A stretch of 19,747 nucleotides of DNA from an uncultured Holophagaceae bacterium (GTDB taxonomy: Bacteria > Acidobacteriota > Holophagae > Holophagales > Holophagaceae). Under the pieces are notes generated by a model. That model did not search any database. It had not been told where the DNA came from and saw nothing but the letters and a program-made list of their open reading frames with translations. Positions 8,428 to 16,291 of the stretch are shown here, one piece after another. The stretch is from positions 1-19,747 of the forward strand of contig CAIYNT010000230.1 in assembly GCA_903927605.1 (NCBI GenBank), given 5' to 3'. How positions within the stretch are numbered: the first letter of the stretch is position 1; each line of letters starts with the position of its first letter. Position numbers and translations under genes: made by a program.

Positions 8428-8487
8428 GGGAAGGAGGTTGCGATGAAGCTGCTGTCCGTGATCGCTGAACCTCCGTCGAGCAGCGCC
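8428..8487 (+). promoter_or_regulatory. Leader element A: conserved 60-nt SD/anti-SD RNA motif upstream of the porin
   Basis: Block 1, GGGAAGGAGGTTgCGATG (8428-8445), is followed by 19 nt of free sequence and block 2, CTGAACCTCCGTCGAG (8465-8480), then two free nt and GCGCC (8483-8487). The same arrangement, identical in every block except one base and with the same 19-nt spacer, is found on the minus strand at 13357-13298 ahead of the ABC operon. GGAGGTT in block 1 is perfectly complementary to AACCTCC in block 2, so the RNA can pair its ribosome-binding site with an anti-SD copy. The porin ATG is 149 nt further down and has no good Shine-Dalgarno of its own. It may be a riboswitch or an attenuation leader; the ligand is unknown. 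Confidence 0.7.
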
Positions 8488-8499
8488 CACCTGGCCTAG
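8443..8499 (+). CDS. Putative leader peptide A (18 aa)
   Basis: The ORF encodes MKLLSVIAEPPSSSAHLA and is preceded by AAGGAGG at 8431-8437, the best Shine-Dalgarno in this part of the window, with 5-nt spacing. It ends 137 nt before the porin start and is in another frame, so it is not an N-terminal extension. The peptide ahead of the ABC operon shares Glu-Pro-Pro-Ser-Ser at the same codon positions. Consecutive prolines are known to slow ribosomes, which would suit an attenuation role. It could instead be a by-product of RNA-level conservation; translation is not shown. Confidence 0.5.
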   Translation: MKLLSVIAEPPSSSAHLA

Positions 8500-8580
8500 C
8501 GTTTCCCGGGCTGATCCTGAGGGTCTGACTGGCGGTGGCGTGGGGTCTTGGTGGCGTTGCCTGCCCCCGCATCCCCGTTC

Positions 8581-8599
8581 CGGGGCCGTCACGGCCCCG
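8581..8599. repeat. Perfect GC-rich palindrome upstream of the porin
   Basis: CGGGGCCGT and ACGGCCCCG flank a single central C. In RNA this gives a strong 7-bp stem with a 5-nt loop. It lies between leader element A and the porin start, and is followed by a pyrimidine-rich but not U-rich stretch. It could be an operator, an attenuator stem or part of the leader structure. Confidence 0.55.
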
Positions 8600-8636
8600 T
8601 CACCGTCCCGCCTTCTCTTTATGCCACGGTGTTCCC

Positions 8637-9965
8637 ATGCGCATCCATCGGACCCTGTTCCGCGCCCTGCTGCTCCCCATCACCTTCCTGGCATTCTCCA
8701 GTCCTCTCCGGAGCCAGACCAGCGATCCCGTCCCCGAGACCTGGAGCTTCCACGGCCAGGCGACCACCATCACCCAAGGGCACGGCGCCTTTGCTTCTCC
8801 CTATGCCGGCGACAACAGCTTCGAGTCCCGCAAGGAGGTCCGCAATTCCTTCACCTCCACGCTGTTCCTGGGGCATCGCCTCTGGGAGGGCACCGAGTTC
8901 TACGTGAATCCCGAACTGGCTGGAGGGCAGGGCTGCAGTCACGTCCTGGGTCTGGCCGCCGCGCCGAACGGTGAAATCTACCGGGTAGACAGCTCAGAGC
9001 TGAAACTCTCGCTCGCCCGCCTATTCCTGCGGCAGATCTGGAATTTTGGTGGCGGCACGGAAGCCGTTGCCGCGGACCAGAACCAGCTAGCCGGATCGCA
9101 CGACCGCCGCCGATTCGTGATGACGGCCGGCAAGATCGCCCTCGGGGATGTCTTCGATAACAATGCCTACACCCATGATCCCCGCACCCAATTCTTCAAC
9201 TGGACGCTGATGGATACCGCCGCCTGGGACTATCCAGCCGATACCCGGGGCTACAGCTGGGGCCTGGCAATCGAGCTGTACTGGGACCAATGGGCCCTCC
9301 GCGCCGGCAGCTTCCTGGTGCCCACCAAGGCGAACGGCCTGTCCTTCGACCATCAGGTGGACCGCGCCCACGGGGACGTGATCGAGGTGGAGCATGACCA
9401 TGAGATCGGTGGCCAGGCAGGCCATGTCCGGCTGCTTGGGTACGCCAACCACGCCGCCATGGGCAGCTACCAGGAGAGCCTCCAGCAATCGCCTCTCGCG
9501 CCGGATGTGACCGCCACGCGCCAGCCCGGCCGCATCAAGTACGGCTGGGGCCTCAGTGCCGACCAGGCCCTGACCGCAGACCTTGGAGCCTTCCTCCGGG
9601 CCGGCTGGAACGATGGCCGCACGGAGACCTGGGTCTTCACCGAGGTGGATCAATCGCTGGCCACGGGCCTCTCTTTAGCGGGGACCGCCTGGTCCCGTGC
9701 CCAGGACCGGCTGGGAATCGCGATGACCCTTGATGGCCTCTCACCTGAGCATCGCGCCTACCTCGCCGCGGGCGGTCTGGGCTTCATGCTCGGGGACGGG
9801 CGGTTGACCTATGGCCAGGAACGTCTCTTCGAGACCTACTACGCCATCGCCCTGGGGCGGTTCTTCACCGCCACCCTGGATGTCCAGCGCATCTGGAATC
9901 CCGGCTACAACCGCGACCGCGGGCCCGTGGACATCTACGCCCTGCGGCTCCACGCGCAGTTCTGA
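8637..9965 (+). CDS. Carbohydrate-selective porin, OprB family
   Basis: A 442-residue outer-membrane beta-barrel protein. Residues 1-26 form a signal peptide ending PLRSQ. The mature protein opens with WSFHGQATTITQGHGAFASPYAGDNS, characteristic of OprB-like porins (HGQ and a Y-x-G-x-NS element). It has many alternating aromatic/polar strands and ends with PGYNRDRGPVDIYALRLHAQF, whose terminal Phe is the usual C-terminal signal for BAM insertion. The ATG at 8637 is chosen for the signal peptide; the frame is open further upstream to 8535 without sensible sequence. Its upstream region carries leader element A, shared with the convergent ABC transporter. Family members often take up sugars or other small polar molecules, but the substrate here is unknown. 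Confidence 0.88.
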   Translation: MRIHRTLFRALLLPITFLAFSSPLRSQTSDPVPETWSFHGQATTITQGHGAFASPYAGDNSFESRKEVRNSFTSTLFLGHRLWEGTEFYVNPELAGGQGCSHVLGLAAAPNGEIYRVDSSELKLSLARLFLRQIWNFGGGTEAVAADQNQLAGSHDRRRFVMTAGKIALGDVFDNNAYTHDPRTQFFNWTLMDTAAWDYPADTRGYSWGLAIELYWDQWALRAGSFLVPTKANGLSFDHQVDRAHGDVIEVEHDHEIGGQAGHVRLLGYANHAAMGSYQESLQQSPLAPDVTATRQPGRIKYGWGLSADQALTADLGAFLRAGWNDGRTETWVFTEVDQSLATGLSLAGTAWSRAQDRLGIAMTLDGLSPEHRAYLAAGGLGFMLGDGRLTYGQERLFETYYAIALGRFFTATLDVQRIWNPGYNRDRGPVDIYALRLHAQF

Positions 9966-9978
9966 GATACCTGGAAGG

Positions 9979-10043
9979 TTACTCCGGAGTCAGGACGCCG
10001 CGTTCCTCGCGATAGGCGAAGAGCTCGCCGAAACGGCCCCACG
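9979..10043 (-). pseudogene. Remnant second copy of the ABC ATPase 3' end
   Basis: These 64 coding nt plus stop match the last 21 codons of the ATPase gene (10141-10204) at 60 of 64 positions. The four differences fall in TAT/TAC, GAG/GAA, CTG/CTC and ACT/ACA codons, and the stop is TAA rather than TAG, so the encoded peptide WGRFGELF...GVLTPE is unchanged. Similarity stops abruptly at 10043. No start or ATPase sequence precedes it, so it is a fossil, not a gene. Confidence 0.75.
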
Positions 10044-10080
10044 GGGCCCCCTCCACGATCGAGCGGAGCGAGGAGCGGGA

Positions 10081-10139: not shown

Positions 10140-11441
10140 CTACTCCGGTGTGAGGACGCCGCGTTCTTCGCGGTAGGCGAAGAGCTCGCCGAAACGGCCC
10201 CACGTGACCAGGGTGTCGAAGGTCTGCTCGGAGTTTTCCATGGGCAGACGTTGTTGCAGTTCGGCGAGCAGCTCGCTTTCTTTCAGCTCGCCCTCGTGCA
10301 GGTCGAGAAGTTCCTGGACCAGGCGGAACAGACGCAGCTCCAACAGCTGGGCCTTCCAGATGTCCTTGCGATCGTCCATGTTGGCGCGAACGAAACGTTG
10401 ACCCAGGGTCGTGAGGACGACCTGGCGCTTGGGGGTGTCCACGAAGTCGAGCATCTCGGCGCCCTTCACGGAGGCGAGGATCTTTTCGAAGGTCACGTGC
10501 GTGGCGGCGGCCACCTGGAAGAGGTCCGCCGTGCCACCCTGGGTCTCCAGGTATTCCAGCAGGCCCAGGATGTCCGAAGAGGGCGCCGGAGGCAGGGGTT
10601 CCACGAGATCGTCCTGCAGGCTGGGCGCTGGAGCGGTGACTTCCACGTCCGGGAGTTCCGTGCTGGTGATGATGTCGTGCAGCTGATCCACCAGACGGAG
10701 GAACTCGGGACTGCGCATGTCCCGGGGCCGGGGCAGGGGGTTCTCCACGATGGTGCGCAGGCGGCCGGGATTTGCTGAAAGCACCACGATGCGGTCAGCC
10801 ATGTAGACCACTTCTTTGATGTCGTGGCTCACCATCAGGATGGAGGACGGATTGCGCTCGGCATCGTCCCAGATGTCGAGGATTTCAGCCCGGAGGCCCT
10901 CCGCCGTAAGTGCATCTACATGGCTGAAGGGCTCGTCCATGAAGAGGATCTCGGGATCCACACTGAGGGCGCGGGCCATGCCCACGCGCTGCTTCATGCC
11001 GCCAGAGAGCTCCCGGGGATAGGCTTCCTCGAAGCCTTCCAGCCCCACCAGGCTAATGGCCCGATGGGCCTTGGCCTTGATGGTCGCTTCATCCAGCCCC
11101 TGGGCCTGGAGCACGGTCTTCACGTTGGCCTCCACCGTCATCCACGGGTAGAGGGCGAAGTTCTGGAAGACGATGGCCACGCCCGGATTGAGTCCCTCCA
11201 TCTTCTCGCCGTGGTAGAAGGTCTTCCCCTTGGTGGGCTGGATCAGGCCGGCGAAGATACGGAGGATGGTGGACTTCCCGCAACCGGACGGCCCGATGAG
11301 GCAGACCACCTCGTTGGCGCGGACATCCAGATTGATGTCCTCCAGCACCCGCAGGGGCTGGCCGGTGTCCCGGTTGAAGGACTTCTGGATGCCCTTCAGC
11401 TCGCAGATGACTTCGTGATTGGCGTGAATGGAGTGCAGCAT
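10140..11441 (-). CDS. ABC transporter ATP-binding protein (NitT/TauT type) with C-terminal AAA-associated domain
   Basis: A 433-residue ATPase that powers the adjacent permease. The ABC domain (~10-250) has Walker A GPSGCGKST (50-58), the Q-loop Gln93, the signature LSGGMKQ (145-151), Walker B ILFMDE (165-170) and the H-loop His206, and resembles SsuB/TauB/NrtD. After a Pro-rich linker (~265-286), residues ~287-430 form a winged-helix-like domain of the AAA-associated C-terminal type (Pfam AAA_assoc_C), ending WGRFGELFAY. That domain is found in a subgroup of these ATPases and is thought to be regulatory. The start is 7 nt after the permease stop, so the pair is translationally coupled. The substrate is unknown. 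A partial copy of its 3' end lies at 9979-10043. Confidence 0.92.
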   Translation of the reverse strand: MLHSIHANHEVICELKGIQKSFNRDTGQPLRVLEDINLDVRANEVVCLIGPSGCGKSTILRIFAGLIQPTKGKTFYHGEKMEGLNPGVAIVFQNFALYPWMTVEANVKTVLQAQGLDEATIKAKAHRAISLVGLEGFEEAYPRELSGGMKQRVGMARALSVDPEILFMDEPFSHVDALTAEGLRAEILDIWDDAERNPSSILMVSHDIKEVVYMADRIVVLSANPGRLRTIVENPLPRPRDMRSPEFLRLVDQLHDIITSTELPDVEVTAPAPSLQDDLVEPLPPAPSSDILGLLEYLETQGGTADLFQVAAATHVTFEKILASVKGAEMLDFVDTPKRQVVLTTLGQRFVRANMDDRKDIWKAQLLELRLFRLVQELLDLHEGELKESELLAELQQRLPMENSEQTFDTLVTWGRFGELFAYREERGVLTPE

Positions 11442-11448
11442 GGAGCCC

Positions 11449-13200
11449 TCACTTCGACAGGGAATAGCGGGTCTCGGCGATCTTGTAGAGCGGTTTCCAG
11501 ACCAGACGGTTGAACAGCACTACCGTTGCGGCAAGGACCAGGGTGGAGGCGGCCAGCAGGGGGAAATCCCGTTGCTCTCCAGCCTGGCTCACAATGGCGC
11601 CGAGGCCAAAAGTCTGCAACGTGGGTCCACTGATGTTGTAGTACTCAGACACGATGCTCGCATTCCAGGCGCCCCCGGCGGCCGTCAGGCAGCCAGTCAC
11701 CAGGTAGGGGAAGATCGCCGGCAGGTAGAGGTTGCGGAAGCGCTGCCAGCGGCTGAAGCCGAAGGCGGTCCCCACTTCCCGGAGGTCGCTGGGGATGGCG
11801 CTGGCACCGGCGATCACGTTGAACAGGATGTACCACTGGGTTCCCAGCAACATGAGGACAATGCTGCCCCAGCCCAGGCCGATCTTGAGGGAAGCCAGGA
11901 CGGCGACAACCACTGGGAACAGCATGGGCGCGGGAAAGGAGGCCGCCACCTGGACGATGGGCTGGAAGATGCGCGACAACCGCTGGGAGAGTCCGATGGC
12001 GAGACCCGCGGGCAGGGTCCAGCAAAGCCCGATGAGGATGGACGCCATCACCCGTGACAGGGTCAGGCCGGCGGCCTTGAGGAGGGTCCACCAGCTACTG
12101 GAAGGGAGCTGATGCAAGAGGTGGAACACGCCGAATCCTCCCAGGACCAGGAAGCCCGAGAGGACAATTAGGGCGGTCATGGACAGCCAGGGAGCAGCAT
12201 GGGCCGCCCGATCGACGCCACCCTCCACTGGAATCCGCTTCCGAACGGGATGGCGATGCTGCCGGTTCCGCCGTCGCTTCGCGCGCCAGCGATCCCACCG
12301 CCGGATGAGGCGGGAGCGGCGGATGAGGTTGAGGAACCAGCTCTGGGAATCGGCGTTCTGGACGGTATCCTCGATGCGGAACCGCTGGGCCCACACCACG
12401 ATGGGCCGCCACAGCACCTGATCCAGCAATACGATCATGAGGATCATCGCCGCGACCGCGAAGAGCTGCGCCCGGACATTGCCGCGTTCCACCGCCATGC
12501 TCATGTACGAGCCCAGGCCCGGTACGCGGAAATCCTTGTCTCCCAGCTTGAAGGCCTCCACCAGCATGAGGAAGAACCAACCGCCCGCCATGCTCATCAT
12601 GCTGTTCCAGGCCAGGCCCGTGGTGGCGAAGGGCAGCTCGACCCACTTGAACCTCTGCCACCAGTTGAACCGATAGACTGTGCCGGCCTCGTGCAGCTCT
12701 GCCGGTACGCTCTTCAGCGAGTGGTAGAGGCTGAAGGTCATGTTCCAGGCCTGGCCTGTGAAGATGGCGATGACGGCGGTGAGCTCGATGCCCACGTTGC
12801 TGTGGGGGAAGGCCGCCACCAACGCGAGCATCAACGGCACGATGAAGGTCATCACCGGGATGCTCTGGAGGATGTCCAGCAGGGGCACCAGCAGCCGTTC
12901 CGAGCGGGCGTCCTTGGCGGCCCAGTAGGCATAAATGAGCGTGAAGAAGAACGAGATCAGGTAGGCCGTCAGCCCCCGCATCATGGAGAAGAAGGTGTAC
13001 TTGGGCAGGGCCCAGGGCGACAGGTCGATCTCCAGCACGGGCCGCTGGATGTCGGTCCACTGGCGGCCCAGGAGGATGAGGCCGTAGAGCATGCCGAAGG
13101 CTGCGGCGACGAGGAGCAGATCTACCCAACGCCGTCGGCGCAGGGGCGCGAAAAGGGCGTTGGCCTGTCCCCACATGGTGTCGAGAAAGCGGTGCATCAT
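11449..13200 (-). CDS. ABC transporter permease, two fused BPD domains (NitT/TauT type)
   Basis: A 583-residue inner-membrane protein that contains both permease units of the transporter in one chain. Each half has about six hydrophobic segments and a cytoplasmic coupling (EAA) loop: AELHEAGTVYRFNWWQRFKW in the first half and SDLREVGTAFGFSRWQRFRN in the second. The halves are joined by a very basic stretch (about residues 290-325, rich in Arg). In the SsuC/TauC/NrtB family the permease is usually a single domain acting as a homodimer, so the fusion is notable though it occurs in some lineages. No substrate-binding protein gene accompanies it. The ATG at 13200 (next Met at 13197) lacks a good Shine-Dalgarno; the leader element B lies 97 nt upstream. 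Confidence 0.9.
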   Translation of the reverse strand: MMHRFLDTMWGQANALFAPLRRRRWVDLLLVAAAFGMLYGLILLGRQWTDIQRPVLEIDLSPWALPKYTFFSMMRGLTAYLISFFFTLIYAYWAAKDARSERLLVPLLDILQSIPVMTFIVPLMLALVAAFPHSNVGIELTAVIAIFTGQAWNMTFSLYHSLKSVPAELHEAGTVYRFNWWQRFKWVELPFATTGLAWNSMMSMAGGWFFLMLVEAFKLGDKDFRVPGLGSYMSMAVERGNVRAQLFAVAAMILMIVLLDQVLWRPIVVWAQRFRIEDTVQNADSQSWFLNLIRRSRLIRRWDRWRAKRRRNRQHRHPVRKRIPVEGGVDRAAHAAPWLSMTALIVLSGFLVLGGFGVFHLLHQLPSSSWWTLLKAAGLTLSRVMASILIGLCWTLPAGLAIGLSQRLSRIFQPIVQVAASFPAPMLFPVVVAVLASLKIGLGWGSIVLMLLGTQWYILFNVIAGASAIPSDLREVGTAFGFSRWQRFRNLYLPAIFPYLVTGCLTAAGGAWNASIVSEYYNISGPTLQTFGLGAIVSQAGEQRDFPLLAASTLVLAATVVLFNRLVWKPLYKIAETRYSLSK

Positions 13201-13282
13201 GGCCGGTCCGGAGGTGCGGATGCAGCGCGCAGGGGCGGGCCGTCATCCCGTTCAGGGGGCAGATTCTGAAGAGCGGGGAATG

Positions 13283-13300
13283 GCCGCCTCAGCGGGCGGC
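13283..13300. repeat. GC-rich hairpin at the 3' edge of leader element B
   Basis: GCCGCC (13283-13288) and GGCGGC (13295-13300) form a perfect 6-bp stem with a 6-nt loop. It overlaps the last codons and stop of leader peptide B and the GCGCC end of the conserved motif. No T-tract follows on the minus strand. It may be part of the leader switch. Confidence 0.5.
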
Positions 13301-13342
13301 GCAACTCGACGGAGGTTCAGAGAGGTCGGCTTGTCGTCCCAT
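13289..13342 (-). CDS. Putative leader peptide B (17 aa)
   Basis: The ORF encodes MGRQADLSEPPSSCAAR, preceded by AAGGAGG with the same spacing as leader peptide A. Glu-Pro-Pro-Ser-Ser is at the same codon positions as in peptide A. It ends 88 nt before the permease ATG and is in a different frame. The peptides otherwise differ, which suits a leader whose key parts are the PP motif or the RNA itself. Translation is unproven. Confidence 0.5.
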   Translation of the reverse strand: MGRQADLSEPPSSCAAR

Positions 13343-13357
13343 CGAAACCTCCTTCCC
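13298..13357 (-). promoter_or_regulatory. Leader element B: conserved 60-nt SD/anti-SD RNA motif upstream of the ABC operon
   Basis: Read on the minus strand, GGGAAGGAGGTTtCGATG (13357-13340) is followed by 19 free nt, CTGAACCTCCGTCGAG (13320-13305), two free nt and GCGCC (13302-13298). It is the partner of element A at 8428-8487, with equal total length and equal spacer but unrelated spacer sequence. That pattern points to constraint on the blocks, not recent duplication. GGAGGTT and AACCTCC can form a 7-bp helix hiding the ribosome-binding site. It lies in the divergent region between the permease and the kinase. Confidence 0.7.
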
Positions 13358-13410: not shown

Positions 13411-13492
13411 CCCAGGGTAGCTTCTCTGGAGGCCGCCTTGGCCTCACGATGGATCATTCACACAGGAGTTACACACGTGGGCATAGGTGACC

Positions 13493-16291
13493 ATGGCGAC
13501 GGCTGAGGAGCGGGCGCTTGCCCTGGCGGTGGCCTGCGGGTTGCTCGAACCCGGTGATATCCGTGGGGCTAACCTGGCCGGCCTGGTCCGGTCGGGGCGC
13601 TTGTCCGAGGCTGATCGCCAGATGCTGGAACAGGATCTGGCGGACCTGGAGCGCGCCGGGGCGAGCCACTGGTCCTGCGAAATCACGGCGCAATCGCCCA
13701 CCGGGGCCGACCCGGATCCCGAGGGAATTGGGCCCGCGGAACCCGAGTCGGGCCCCCCCCCAGACGGCACCTCCGCCTCGGCAGGGTTCAGGCAAGGTGG
13801 CGTGTTTAGGGCCAGGACCCTCTCCCGCTGGGGCCGCTTCGAATCCCTCGAGCTGCTCGGCGAGGGCGGCATGGGGCGCATCTTCCGGGCTACGGATCCC
13901 CGCCTTCGCCGGGAAGTGGCTCTGAAGCTCCTGCGGCGCGATGACCCGGACCTCCTCCGGCGCTTTCTCCAGGAGGCCCAGCTCCAGGCCCGAGTCGATC
14001 ATCCGAATGTGTGCCGGGTCCATGAAGTGGGGGAATGGCGTGGCCAACCCTACATCGCCATGCAGTTCCTCCGCGGGGTGACCCTGCAGAAGGCCGCGCC
14101 GAGCCTCTCCCTGGAGGCCCTGCTCCGCCACATGGTGGAGGTCTGCGAGGGCGTTCACGCGGCCCACCGAGTGGGTCTCGTCCACCGTGATCTGAAGCCG
14201 GCCAACCTGATGCTCGACCGATCGGAGGATGGCTCCGCCCATGCCTGCGTGCTCGATTTCGGACTGGCCCGGGGCGCCGAGGGTGGGGGACTCACCGAGA
14301 CAGGCCGTGTGATGGGCACGGTGAGTTATATGTCCCCAGAGCAGGCGCGGGGAGACACGGCGCTGCTCGACCGGCGCTCGGATGTCTATTCGCTGGGAGC
14401 CACGCTGTACTCGCTGTTGACGGGGGCGCCGCCCTTCCCGGGCGAGGGGCTCGAGTGCATGTCTCAGATCGTGAAGGACGACCCGGTTCCGCTGCGTCGC
14501 AAGCTGCCCGATCTCCCGGCGGATCTCGAGACCGTGGTCCTCACCTGCCTCCAGAAGGATCCGCGCTCCCGGTATGCCACGGCCCGGGCGCTGGGCGAGG
14601 ATCTGCAGCGCATGCTCGATGGCGAGCCCATCCAGGCCCGCCCGGCCTCGGCGGTGGAGAGGGCGGCTCGCTGGGTGCGGAAGCACAAGATCCTGGTGGC
14701 GGCCTCAGCCGCCGTGCTCCTGTCCATGGTCACCTTTGGCGGGTTCGCCGTGCGGGAGCGGCTGCGGGCCACCGCCCAGGCCGCCCATGCCCAGCGCTTC
14801 GCCCAGGCGGCGGAACGGATCGAGGCCCTGGCGCGGTACCTCCGCCTGCAGCCTGCGCGGGACCTAACCCGGGATCACGCGGACCTGCGGGCTCGGGCGG
14901 AGGCCCTGGCCCAGGCGGTCAAGGGCGCTGGTGCCCTGGCTGAGGCGCCCGGTGCCTACGCCCTGGGGCGGGCCAGCCTGTCGCTGGACGATCCCGCCGG
15001 GGCGCGCGTCCACCTGGAACGCGCATGGTCCCTGGGGTTCCGGACGCCAGAGACAGCCCATGCCCTGGGGCGGGCCATGGCGGCCATCTACCAGGTCGAG
15101 TTGGAGAAGGCCTCCGCGCTGCCGGATCCGGACCTGCGGAAACGGCGGCTTGATGAGCTGCGCACCACTCTGCGGGACCCCGCAGCGGATTGGCTCCGCC
15201 GCGGGGCGTCGGCCAGCCTGGAACCCCCGGCGTTCCGGGCGGGCCTGCTCACGCTCATGGAGGGCCGAGCCCAGGAGGCAGTTCGCCTCGCGAAGGAGGC
15301 CCAAGCGCAGGCCCCCTGGTTCTACGAGGCCCTGCGGCTGGAAACCGAGGCTTGGCTGGCCCAGGCCCGCACCGCCCAGGAACCGCAGGTTGCGAAACCC
15401 GCCCTGGTCGCTGCTGGAAAGGCCCTGACCGAGGCCGAGGCCCGGGCTCCCTGCGACGTGGAGCTCCTGCGCCTCGACATGCGCCGGTGGCAGGAGGCCG
15501 TGGCCCTGGGTTGGCAATCCGAGACTGATCCGAAGGTGCCCGTGCAGGCGCAGGTCTCCGTGGCGGACCGCTGGGCCCGTCTGGAGCCTGCCTCCGCCTC
15601 GCCCTTGGCGTGGCGGGCCCGGGCCCAGGGGGAGATGGCCCGCTACCTCACCATGCGCGAGGCGGACCCGGGAGTCTGGCTCGACCAGGCCAGGCAGGAC
15701 GCAGCCGAGGCGGTCCACCGGAACCCTGAGGACGTCGAAGCCTGCACGGCCCTGGCCTCCGTCCTGCGCACAGAGAGCTACCGCCTGTTGAGCCGCAGGT
15801 TGGATCCCACGGTCCGGGTTCGGGAGGCCATCGCGGCGGCGGATCGGGGCCTGCGCCTAGATCCCGGGCACATTGTCCTGATCAACATCCGCAGCTCGGC
15901 CCTGCTGCTCCTGATCGACGCCGCCCGGGCGAGGGGAACCTACCACCGAAGCGATGTGGCCCCTTACATCGATGAGGCGCGTGCAATGGCCGAGGCCCAC
16001 TCGGACGAAGCCTACTTCCAGGGACATCTCGGCGCTCTGGCCCAGGCCGCCGCCAAGGCCGAGGTGGCCTCAGGCGAGGACCCGACCGGCGATGCGGAAC
16101 TGGCCGCCCGGGCCTACGCCATCAGCCTGAGGGCCCAGCCACACCATGTGGGATGGCATCGTGGCATCCTCATCGTGCGGGCGGCCCAGGCCCTGGTCAG
16201 GGTCCGGGAAGGGCGGGGGATCCCGCCCCCTTCGTGCAGCAGGTACGGGCGGCCTTCCAGGAGGCCCGGAAGGCCCAGGTCCCCCTGGTGA
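13493..16291 (+). CDS. Ser/Thr protein kinase (Hanks type) with membrane segment and repeat-rich C-terminal region, 3' end frameshifted
   Basis: As read, 932 residues. A short N-terminal region (~1-112) precedes a complete kinase domain: glycine loop GEGGMG (123-128), catalytic Lys145, HRDLKPAN with Asp233 as catalytic base, DFGLAR from Asp255, and SYMSPEQAR in the activation-loop end. A single hydrophobic segment (~400-422) anchors it, and the remaining ~500 residues are Ala/Arg/Glu-rich helices resembling tetratricopeptide repeats, presumably on the far side of the membrane. The last ~28 residues (from about 907) become Arg/Pro/Ser-rich and poorly coded; the coding signal moves to another frame after the G5 run at 16215-16219. 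The ATG at 13493 is used; a GTG at 13487 is 2 codons upstream. Neither has a good Shine-Dalgarno. The target is unknown. Confidence 0.85.
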   Translation: MATAEERALALAVACGLLEPGDIRGANLAGLVRSGRLSEADRQMLEQDLADLERAGASHWSCEITAQSPTGADPDPEGIGPAEPESGPPPDGTSASAGFRQGGVFRARTLSRWGRFESLELLGEGGMGRIFRATDPRLRREVALKLLRRDDPDLLRRFLQEAQLQARVDHPNVCRVHEVGEWRGQPYIAMQFLRGVTLQKAAPSLSLEALLRHMVEVCEGVHAAHRVGLVHRDLKPANLMLDRSEDGSAHACVLDFGLARGAEGGGLTETGRVMGTVSYMSPEQARGDTALLDRRSDVYSLGATLYSLLTGAPPFPGEGLECMSQIVKDDPVPLRRKLPDLPADLETVVLTCLQKDPRSRYATARALGEDLQRMLDGEPIQARPASAVERAARWVRKHKILVAASAAVLLSMVTFGGFAVRERLRATAQAAHAQRFAQAAERIEALARYLRLQPARDLTRDHADLRARAEALAQAVKGAGALAEAPGAYALGRASLSLDDPAGARVHLERAWSLGFRTPETAHALGRAMAAIYQVELEKASALPDPDLRKRRLDELRTTLRDPAADWLRRGASASLEPPAFRAGLLTLMEGRAQEAVRLAKEAQAQAPWFYEALRLETEAWLAQARTAQEPQVAKPALVAAGKALTEAEARAPCDVELLRLDMRRWQEAVALGWQSETDPKVPVQAQVSVADRWARLEPASASPLAWRARAQGEMARYLTMREADPGVWLDQARQDAAEAVHRNPEDVEACTALASVLRTESYRLLSRRLDPTVRVREAIAAADRGLRLDPGHIVLINIRSSALLLLIDAARARGTYHRSDVAPYIDEARAMAEAHSDEAYFQGHLGALAQAAAKAEVASGEDPTGDAELAARAYAISLRAQPHHVGWHRGILIVRAAQALVRVREGRGIPPPSCSRYGRPSRRPGRPRSPW

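Follow-up and report, generated by a model that had tools for sequence, protein, structure and literature searches.

The window analysed here, a stretch of 19,747 nucleotides from an uncultured Holophagaceae bacterium, carries an OprB-family porin gene on the forward strand (8637–9965; Pfam PF04966, E 8.8e-38) and, on the reverse strand, a NitT-like ABC permease gene with two BPD_transp_1 stretches (11449–13200; Pfam PF00528, NCBIfam profiles matching only below their cut-offs) followed by the gene of an ABC ATPase with a C-terminal AAA-associated domain (10140–11441; Pfam PF00005 and PF09821). Ahead of the porin and permease genes lie two matched elements, at 8428–8487 (+) and 13357–13298 (−), which share the order GGGAAGGAGGTTnCGATG, a 19-nt spacer, CTGAACCTCCGTCGAG, two free nucleotides and GCGCC, and form the longest inverted pair (63 nt) among those listed for the window. 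An earlier note, made from the letters of this DNA, had described the pair, and its coordinates, strands, shared blocks and unrelated spacers were all confirmed from the sequence. The full exact pattern occurs in six stretches of the genome collection (titles Geothrix rubra, Holophagaceae or Acidobacteria). Exact copies of GAACCTCCGTCGAG occur in the window only at the two elements; two other matches have three mismatches, and the total of four is at chance level, being reached by 51 of 200 shuffles. Two further features of the window are a 69-nt direct repeat (9980–10048 and 10141–10209, 91% identical), by which the last part of the ATPase gene, stop codon included, is duplicated about 160 nt downstream, and a gene at 13487–16291 (+) whose product of 934 residues includes a Ser/Thr kinase domain and the transcription of which is directed away from the ABC leader.

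Each element contains a short open reading frame (ORF) preceded by a strong Shine–Dalgarno (SD) site. In the porin leader, the SD block GGAGGTT (8433–8439, +) stands ahead of an ORF at 8443–8499 (+) that, translated from its ATG, yields MKLLSVIAEPPSSSAHLA, with Glu9-Pro10-Pro11 encoded at 8467–8475; in the ABC leader, GGAGGTT (13346–13352, −) stands ahead of an ORF at 13289–13342 (−) encoding MGRQADLSEPPSSCAAR, with Glu9-Pro10-Pro11 at 13318–13310. Both ORFs were recognised by translation and by comparison with relatives. The sequence also allows each SD block to pair with an AACCTCC stretch (8468–8474 and 13317–13311, respectively), and this pairing was counted on the relatives.

Among relatives, an SD was present in 82 of the 83 elements examined, and these provided 79 distinct ORFs; left out were a degenerate leader without an SD (L074, which was nevertheless counted among the ABC neighbours described below) and one leader (L013) whose 66-mer is identical to that of L007. 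Leader ORFs of 13 to 31 codons were seen, with an SD-to-start spacing of 9, 10, 11 or 13. All 79 ORFs retain an acidic residue, which occupies codon 8, 9 or 13 and whose codon invariably begins with G; the core [E/D]-P-P-[S/L] is found in 78, the exception being Pro-Ser in L158. The exact 19-nt free spacer described earlier holds in length and unrelatedness for the window pair, but it consists of codons 2–7 plus one base of the ORF, and its length is not fixed in relatives, where the Glu/Asp codon follows the start codon at a distance of 21, 24 or 36 nt. As the keeping of frame is partly favoured by the procedure used to pick start codons, the motif and the changes of length in multiples of three are the stronger facts. 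At the level of sequence, the 79 ORFs, with their core and in-frame steps, represent the conserved short ORF in a 5' leader that characterizes leader-peptide attenuators. Taken alone, the statement that the element is a conserved leader ORF is almost certainly correct, and a leader-peptide gene that is translated describes the element better than a structured RNA would.

Two observations concern the ABC group. In the MGR-type leaders of this group, codons 2–3 are nearly invariantly GGA CGA, for which neither SD pairing nor the core provides an explanation. The degenerate leader L074 (genome G039), which lies ahead of a permease paralogue, has a recognisable MGRQADL start and has lost both the SD and the Pro-Pro core.

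The codons of the core are also unusual. Using BLAST-framed downstream genes as background, we determined that 78 of 79 ORFs have CCT as their first Pro codon, as compared with a CCT share of 6.1% among 1529 Pro codons of the downstream genes; the second is CCG in 63, CCT in nine, CCC in four and CCA in two, with Ser in the remaining one. GAA for Glu (63 rows; background 27%) and TCG for Ser (66 rows; background 18%) likewise exceed the background, and the peptide does not account for why GAA, CCG and TCG are over-used in the core.

Pairing between the SD and CCUCC, which the earlier note had proposed to hide the ribosome-binding site, is possible in 94.3% of the cells of the relatives' alignment, whereas covariation is slight. 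Five cells are changed on both sides of the helix (reached by three of 500 shuffles) and the covariation score is reached by one of 500 shuffles, but only two base pairs show a double change, a number that 61 of 500 shuffles reach. In predicted folding, the two 66-mers do no better than dinucleotide shuffles (z −0.17 and −0.45), so that structure is not evident from energy alone. When compared with synonymous variants, SD pairing is stronger than expected (mean z −1.13, as opposed to +0.20 for a control with shuffled upstream sequence), and in 29% of the 79 ORFs at most 5% of synonymous variants pair as strongly. Freezing the first Pro codon, however, removes this excess (mean z +0.22; 6% of ORFs), and selection for SD pairing was therefore rejected as an explanation going beyond the CCT codon itself. 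CCU may accordingly be kept for decoding rather than for pairing, although codon-specific decoding and pairing fit the present data alike. The idea that the constraint is mainly one of RNA structure was not supported, as the conserved blocks correspond to the start and the Glu-Pro-Pro-Ser core, length changes are in frame, and the codons differ across classes.

To follow the element through related genomes, covariance-model searches of the kind suggested by the earlier note were performed, and they revealed many further copies, the real ones all ahead of transporter or porin genes. Of 77 genomes from the family to which Geothrix rubra belongs, 60 had a match to model R1 (E up to 0.1) and 63 to model R2 (E up to 0.01), while none of 16 other genomes of the same class had an R2 match. 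In a phylum sample of 396 genomes, 35 gave matches with E no higher than 0.02, of which three are false; among four weak matches (E 0.014–0.020), that in G066 is a porin leader and those in G417, G108 and G218 are not leaders. In the A3 set, L033:1092 is evidently a false hit and L047/L158 is a duplicate.

BLAST comparison with three gene types, within 900 nt downstream, served to assign the neighbours. All 82 real elements with a readable neighbour stand ahead of a NitT-like ABC permease (55), an OprB porin (15) or an Nramp-related transporter (12), which bears out the earlier proposal that the elements precede uptake genes. In the first set of elements, 71 of 72 were assigned (52 ABC, 14 OprB, five Nramp), the remaining one being at a contig end; 15 additional elements comprised three ABC, one OprB, seven Nramp, one at a contig end and three false matches. 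The sequences L072 and L157 end before any gene could be matched. An earlier clustering that did not use those BLAST queries gave the same three groups. Since real copies occur only ahead of three gene types, a mobile repeat was rejected. In one genome (G004), a porin leader, the porin gene, an Nramp leader and the Nramp gene follow one another consecutively.

For the Nramp-related target, the best PDB match is 7qia (E 5.8e-59; the next match is at 2e-17), which we take to be EleNRMT, and the aligned target L078 has DAGG and TTIAPW in common with it. The NRMT metal-site signature, described in PMC8806188 as a change of Asn to Gly in helix 1 and of Ala to Thr and Met to Ala in helix 6, is present in L078 as judged by this alignment. 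The Nramp targets thus carry the metal-site signature of NRMTs (Mg2+/Mn2+) and may transport Mg2+. The nrmT genes were discovered through M-box riboswitches, and NrmT proteins are reported to move Mg2+, although for an NrmT of Acidobacterium Mn2+ is reported to have served better than Mg2+ (PMC4072509). For the ABC permease and ATPase, the closest profiles are those of nitrate, taurine and related systems, all under the curated NCBIfam cut-offs; the family combines a double NitT-like permease with an AAA-associated-domain ATPase, and there is no binding-protein gene between leader and ATPase.

We also determined which other Mg2+ systems these genomes encode. Twelve of 20 chosen genomes have CorA, one MgtE, two a close NRMT, and three an MgtA-type ATPase over the cut-off. 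Across the family, CorA is over the cut-off in 32 of 77 genomes: four of 19 with a porin or NRMT leader as compared with 28 of 58 others (p 0.059, uncorrected for kinship). Among the 61 genomes of at least 2.8 Mb, the respective values are four of 19 and 24 of 42 (p 0.012, with a size cut chosen afterwards and kinship uncorrected), and for porin leaders alone they are three of 14 and 29 of 63 (p 0.13, kinship uncorrected). This weak association of porin/NRMT leaders with the absence of CorA is suggestive only. G. rubra (G001) has both leaders and no CorA, MgtE, close NRMT or MgtA-type ATPase over the cut-off. By elimination among these four systems, the ABC system may carry Mg2+.

Known riboswitches do not account for the element. 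No Rfam family, M-box RF00380 included, matches the window above its gathering score, in agreement with the note's failure to recognise a known riboswitch family. No Rfam match was obtained in 20 distant upstream stretches either, and 13 further loci (E up to 0.5) gave only tRNAs and sub-threshold matches to YrlA and Acido-Lenti-1. An M-box was found in one of 297 genomes of the phylum; this single instance (L166, genome G334) lies ahead of a 433-residue frame, followed by an Nramp-related frame with DNDAGG. Searches of the open-licence literature on leaders, Mg2+ transporters, Acidobacteria, NRMTs, porins and the ABC family brought up no description of the element.

The distance from element to gene is mostly 50–150 nt. 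The interval ahead of the ABC permease is C-rich and G-poor, C exceeding G in 49 of 50 cases as compared with 18 of 52 in the 100 nt upstream, while for the porin interval this bias is weaker (9 of 13). In the window, where these intervals lie at 13201–13288 (−) and 8500–8636 (+), respectively, neither contains an intrinsic terminator, and the interval ahead of the porin has no sigma-70-like match. The C-rich ABC interval, together with the lack of an intrinsic terminator in the window intervals, leans toward Rho. Alignment of the leader-to-gene stretches (MAFFT/RNAalifold, without ten loci that were truncated or had intervals of unusual length) identified the SD/CCTCC helix as the only fold feature common to the groups, and neither this comparison nor single folds revealed a common switch structure in the Holophagaceae intervals. 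SD-like motifs are absent at 52 of 52 permease starts, 13 of 14 porin starts and 12 of 24 ATPase starts, and present at four of five Nramp starts.

Homologues of the permease (E up to 1e-60) were also detected in 23 of 147 genomes of another class of the phylum. Of 25 loci scanned from other classes, four of them from the phylum search and two starting inside the gene with no upstream sequence visible, only three have a leader: L087, L129 and L131, with the peptides MSEPGSSRTTEPPSPLTIVND, MSDSGSSSRTEPPSSKWFVQRRTARL and MSDTGSSSSRMEPPSTRMSSSAIVSDRPVRG, respectively. Their core coding sequences (GAACCTCCATCT, GAACCACCGTCT and GAGCCTCCGTCT) keep EPPS with different codons, CCTCC is lost in L129, which retains EPPS, and model R2 misses all three; conservation of the peptide thus outlives conservation of the nucleotides. 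In the predicted fold of L087, the end of the leader and the anti-RBS arm pair with each other except when the leader stop codon is covered by a ribosome, while in L129 and L131 this logic is not clear. The stretch between leader and permease in L131 contains a second small ORF, MQNQVIAISLCHVKGEARA, which overlaps the permease start and comes after a hairpin in which a GGAGG site is hidden. In 20 upstream stretches of other Acidobacteriota ABC operons, from genomes that are presumably Terriglobia, there is no leader, and the ATPase gene comes first in 16. A near-identical TAATGATACGCTGA block 60–90 nt ahead of the ATPase start in L109, L113, L114, L117–L120, L123 and L124 is possibly a promoter or another element.

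Several known leaders resemble the one described here. Destabilisation of the ribosome by MgtL, which has an EPDP motif, and by MgtQ, which has acidic residues, is reported to raise Mg2+ importers, acting through Rho or through RBS structure (PMC11282234; PMC8092293). Like the leaders analysed here, MgtL of enteric mgtA is a short ORF with an early acidic/proline motif and a Mg2+ importer behind it, and its translation governs Rho-dependent termination (PMC11282234). An early acidic/proline motif of this type, [E/D]PP, occurs in 78 of 79 ORFs, while the exact EPDP is absent from the window peptides. Furthermore, EPDP occupies codons 2–5 of MgtL, whereas [E/D]PP is found here at codons 8–15, and the target of MgtL is a P-type ATPase rather than an ABC permease, OprB porin or Nramp-related protein; the likeness described here is one of motif. 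MgtQ of Salmonella mgtCB is likewise a tiny ORF with acidic residues, and its poor translation opens a stem that otherwise sequesters the RBS (PMC8092293), a logic that the predicted fold of L087 would follow; it differs in having eight codons and no diproline core and in sitting between operon genes. The M-box controls Nramp-related transporters in other bacteria (PMC4072509), but it is a 169-position aptamer, while the element here is an ORF. MgtP and other diproline/EF-P leaders also place Pro codons in the short leader of a Mg2+-related operon, although the signal reported for MgtP is charged tRNA-Pro (PMC8092293) and in the present leaders the acidic residue is invariant. In XPP motifs targeted by EF-P, G is described as favoured first in the X codon (PMC11611912). 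Acidic/proline leaders that sense Mg2+ by way of the ribosome are described in enteric bacteria, and an MgtQ-like ORF has been noted in Brucella (PMC8092293). As a kind, acidic/proline leaders preceding Mg2+ uptake genes are known; the leader family, hosts, core and target set appear to be new.

Considering these results together, we propose, with a probability of roughly 0.6, that an MgtL/MgtQ-like leader peptide controls a divalent-cation uptake regulon, most likely for Mg2+, by translation-dependent attenuation. Under shortage of Mg2+ or of a comparable divalent ion, ribosomes would pause or abort at the acidic-diproline core. This would alter either how Rho reaches the C-rich interval or how the RNA folds near the start of the downstream gene, and porin, ABC importer and Nramp-related transporter would be made. 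With an ample supply of the ion, the ribosome would complete the leader and expression would drop. The occurrence in 63 of 77 family genomes and none of the 16 others, the 82 of 82 neighbours, the almost invariant core with its in-frame steps, the EPPS leaders of another class, the NRMT targets, the analogy with MgtL and MgtQ, the G-first X codon, the L087 fold, the C-rich interval and the set of Mg2+ systems in G. rubra argue for this proposal. Counted against it are the lack of a common switch in the Holophagaceae, the unclear logic of L129 and L131, the scarcity of leaders elsewhere (3/25), the weak CorA association, the NrmT of Acidobacterium that served Mn2+ better, and the over-used codons of the core.

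The same device could instead read charged tRNA-Pro or EF-P activity, with the genes serving a sulfonate- or nitrate-like or other nutrient. The Pro-Pro core with its rare first codon, the response of Salmonella MgtP to charged tRNA-Pro (PMC8092293) and the nitrate- and taurine-like profiles of permease and ATPase, all below curated cut-offs, would suit such sensing; since plain proline sensing needs no acidic residue, which is nevertheless present in 79 of 79 ORFs, and since a divalent ion is suggested by the Nramp-related target, we regard it as unlikely. A predominantly RNA-based switch, in which CCUCC hides the leader's own SD until a signal opens the hairpin and the peptide is incidental, seems more improbable still: the widespread pairing, the covariation score, the near-constant CCT and the pairing excess over synonymous variants speak for it, but it is difficult to reconcile with in-frame length steps, a peptide kept across classes in other codons (in L129 even without CCTCC), the disappearance of the pairing excess once the first Pro codon is frozen, and fold energies equal to those of shuffles.

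It is also conceivable that the strong leader RBS simply loads ribosomes for a weak downstream start, without ion sensing, leader genes having been proposed to raise translation via re-initiation (PMC4833913). While the missing SD-like motifs at permease and porin starts agree with such a helper, SD absence is common in these genomes, as the ATPase starts illustrate, most Nramp starts do have an SD, the distance from element to gene is mostly long for re-initiation, and a fixed [E/D]PP core would be unnecessary, so that we give this explanation very little weight.

Returning to the proposed attenuation by an acidic-diproline leader, a more far-reaching version is that Acidobacteriota possess an independently arisen, ribosome-sensed Mg2+ regulon in which such leaders coordinate porin, NRMT and ABC importer; this we put forward tentatively, as doubtful at present. 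If it is true, the ABC family would be a candidate new class of Mg2+ importers, serving organisms like G. rubra, for which neither CorA nor MgtE was found, and a likely substrate class would be at hand for an orphan ABC importer and an OprB-type porin. The leader would provide a compact diproline system for studying the effects of Mg2+, EF-P and codons on elongation. Moreover, with a separate lineage, another core and other transporters, pausing on a nascent peptide would be a recurrent way to read divalent ions.
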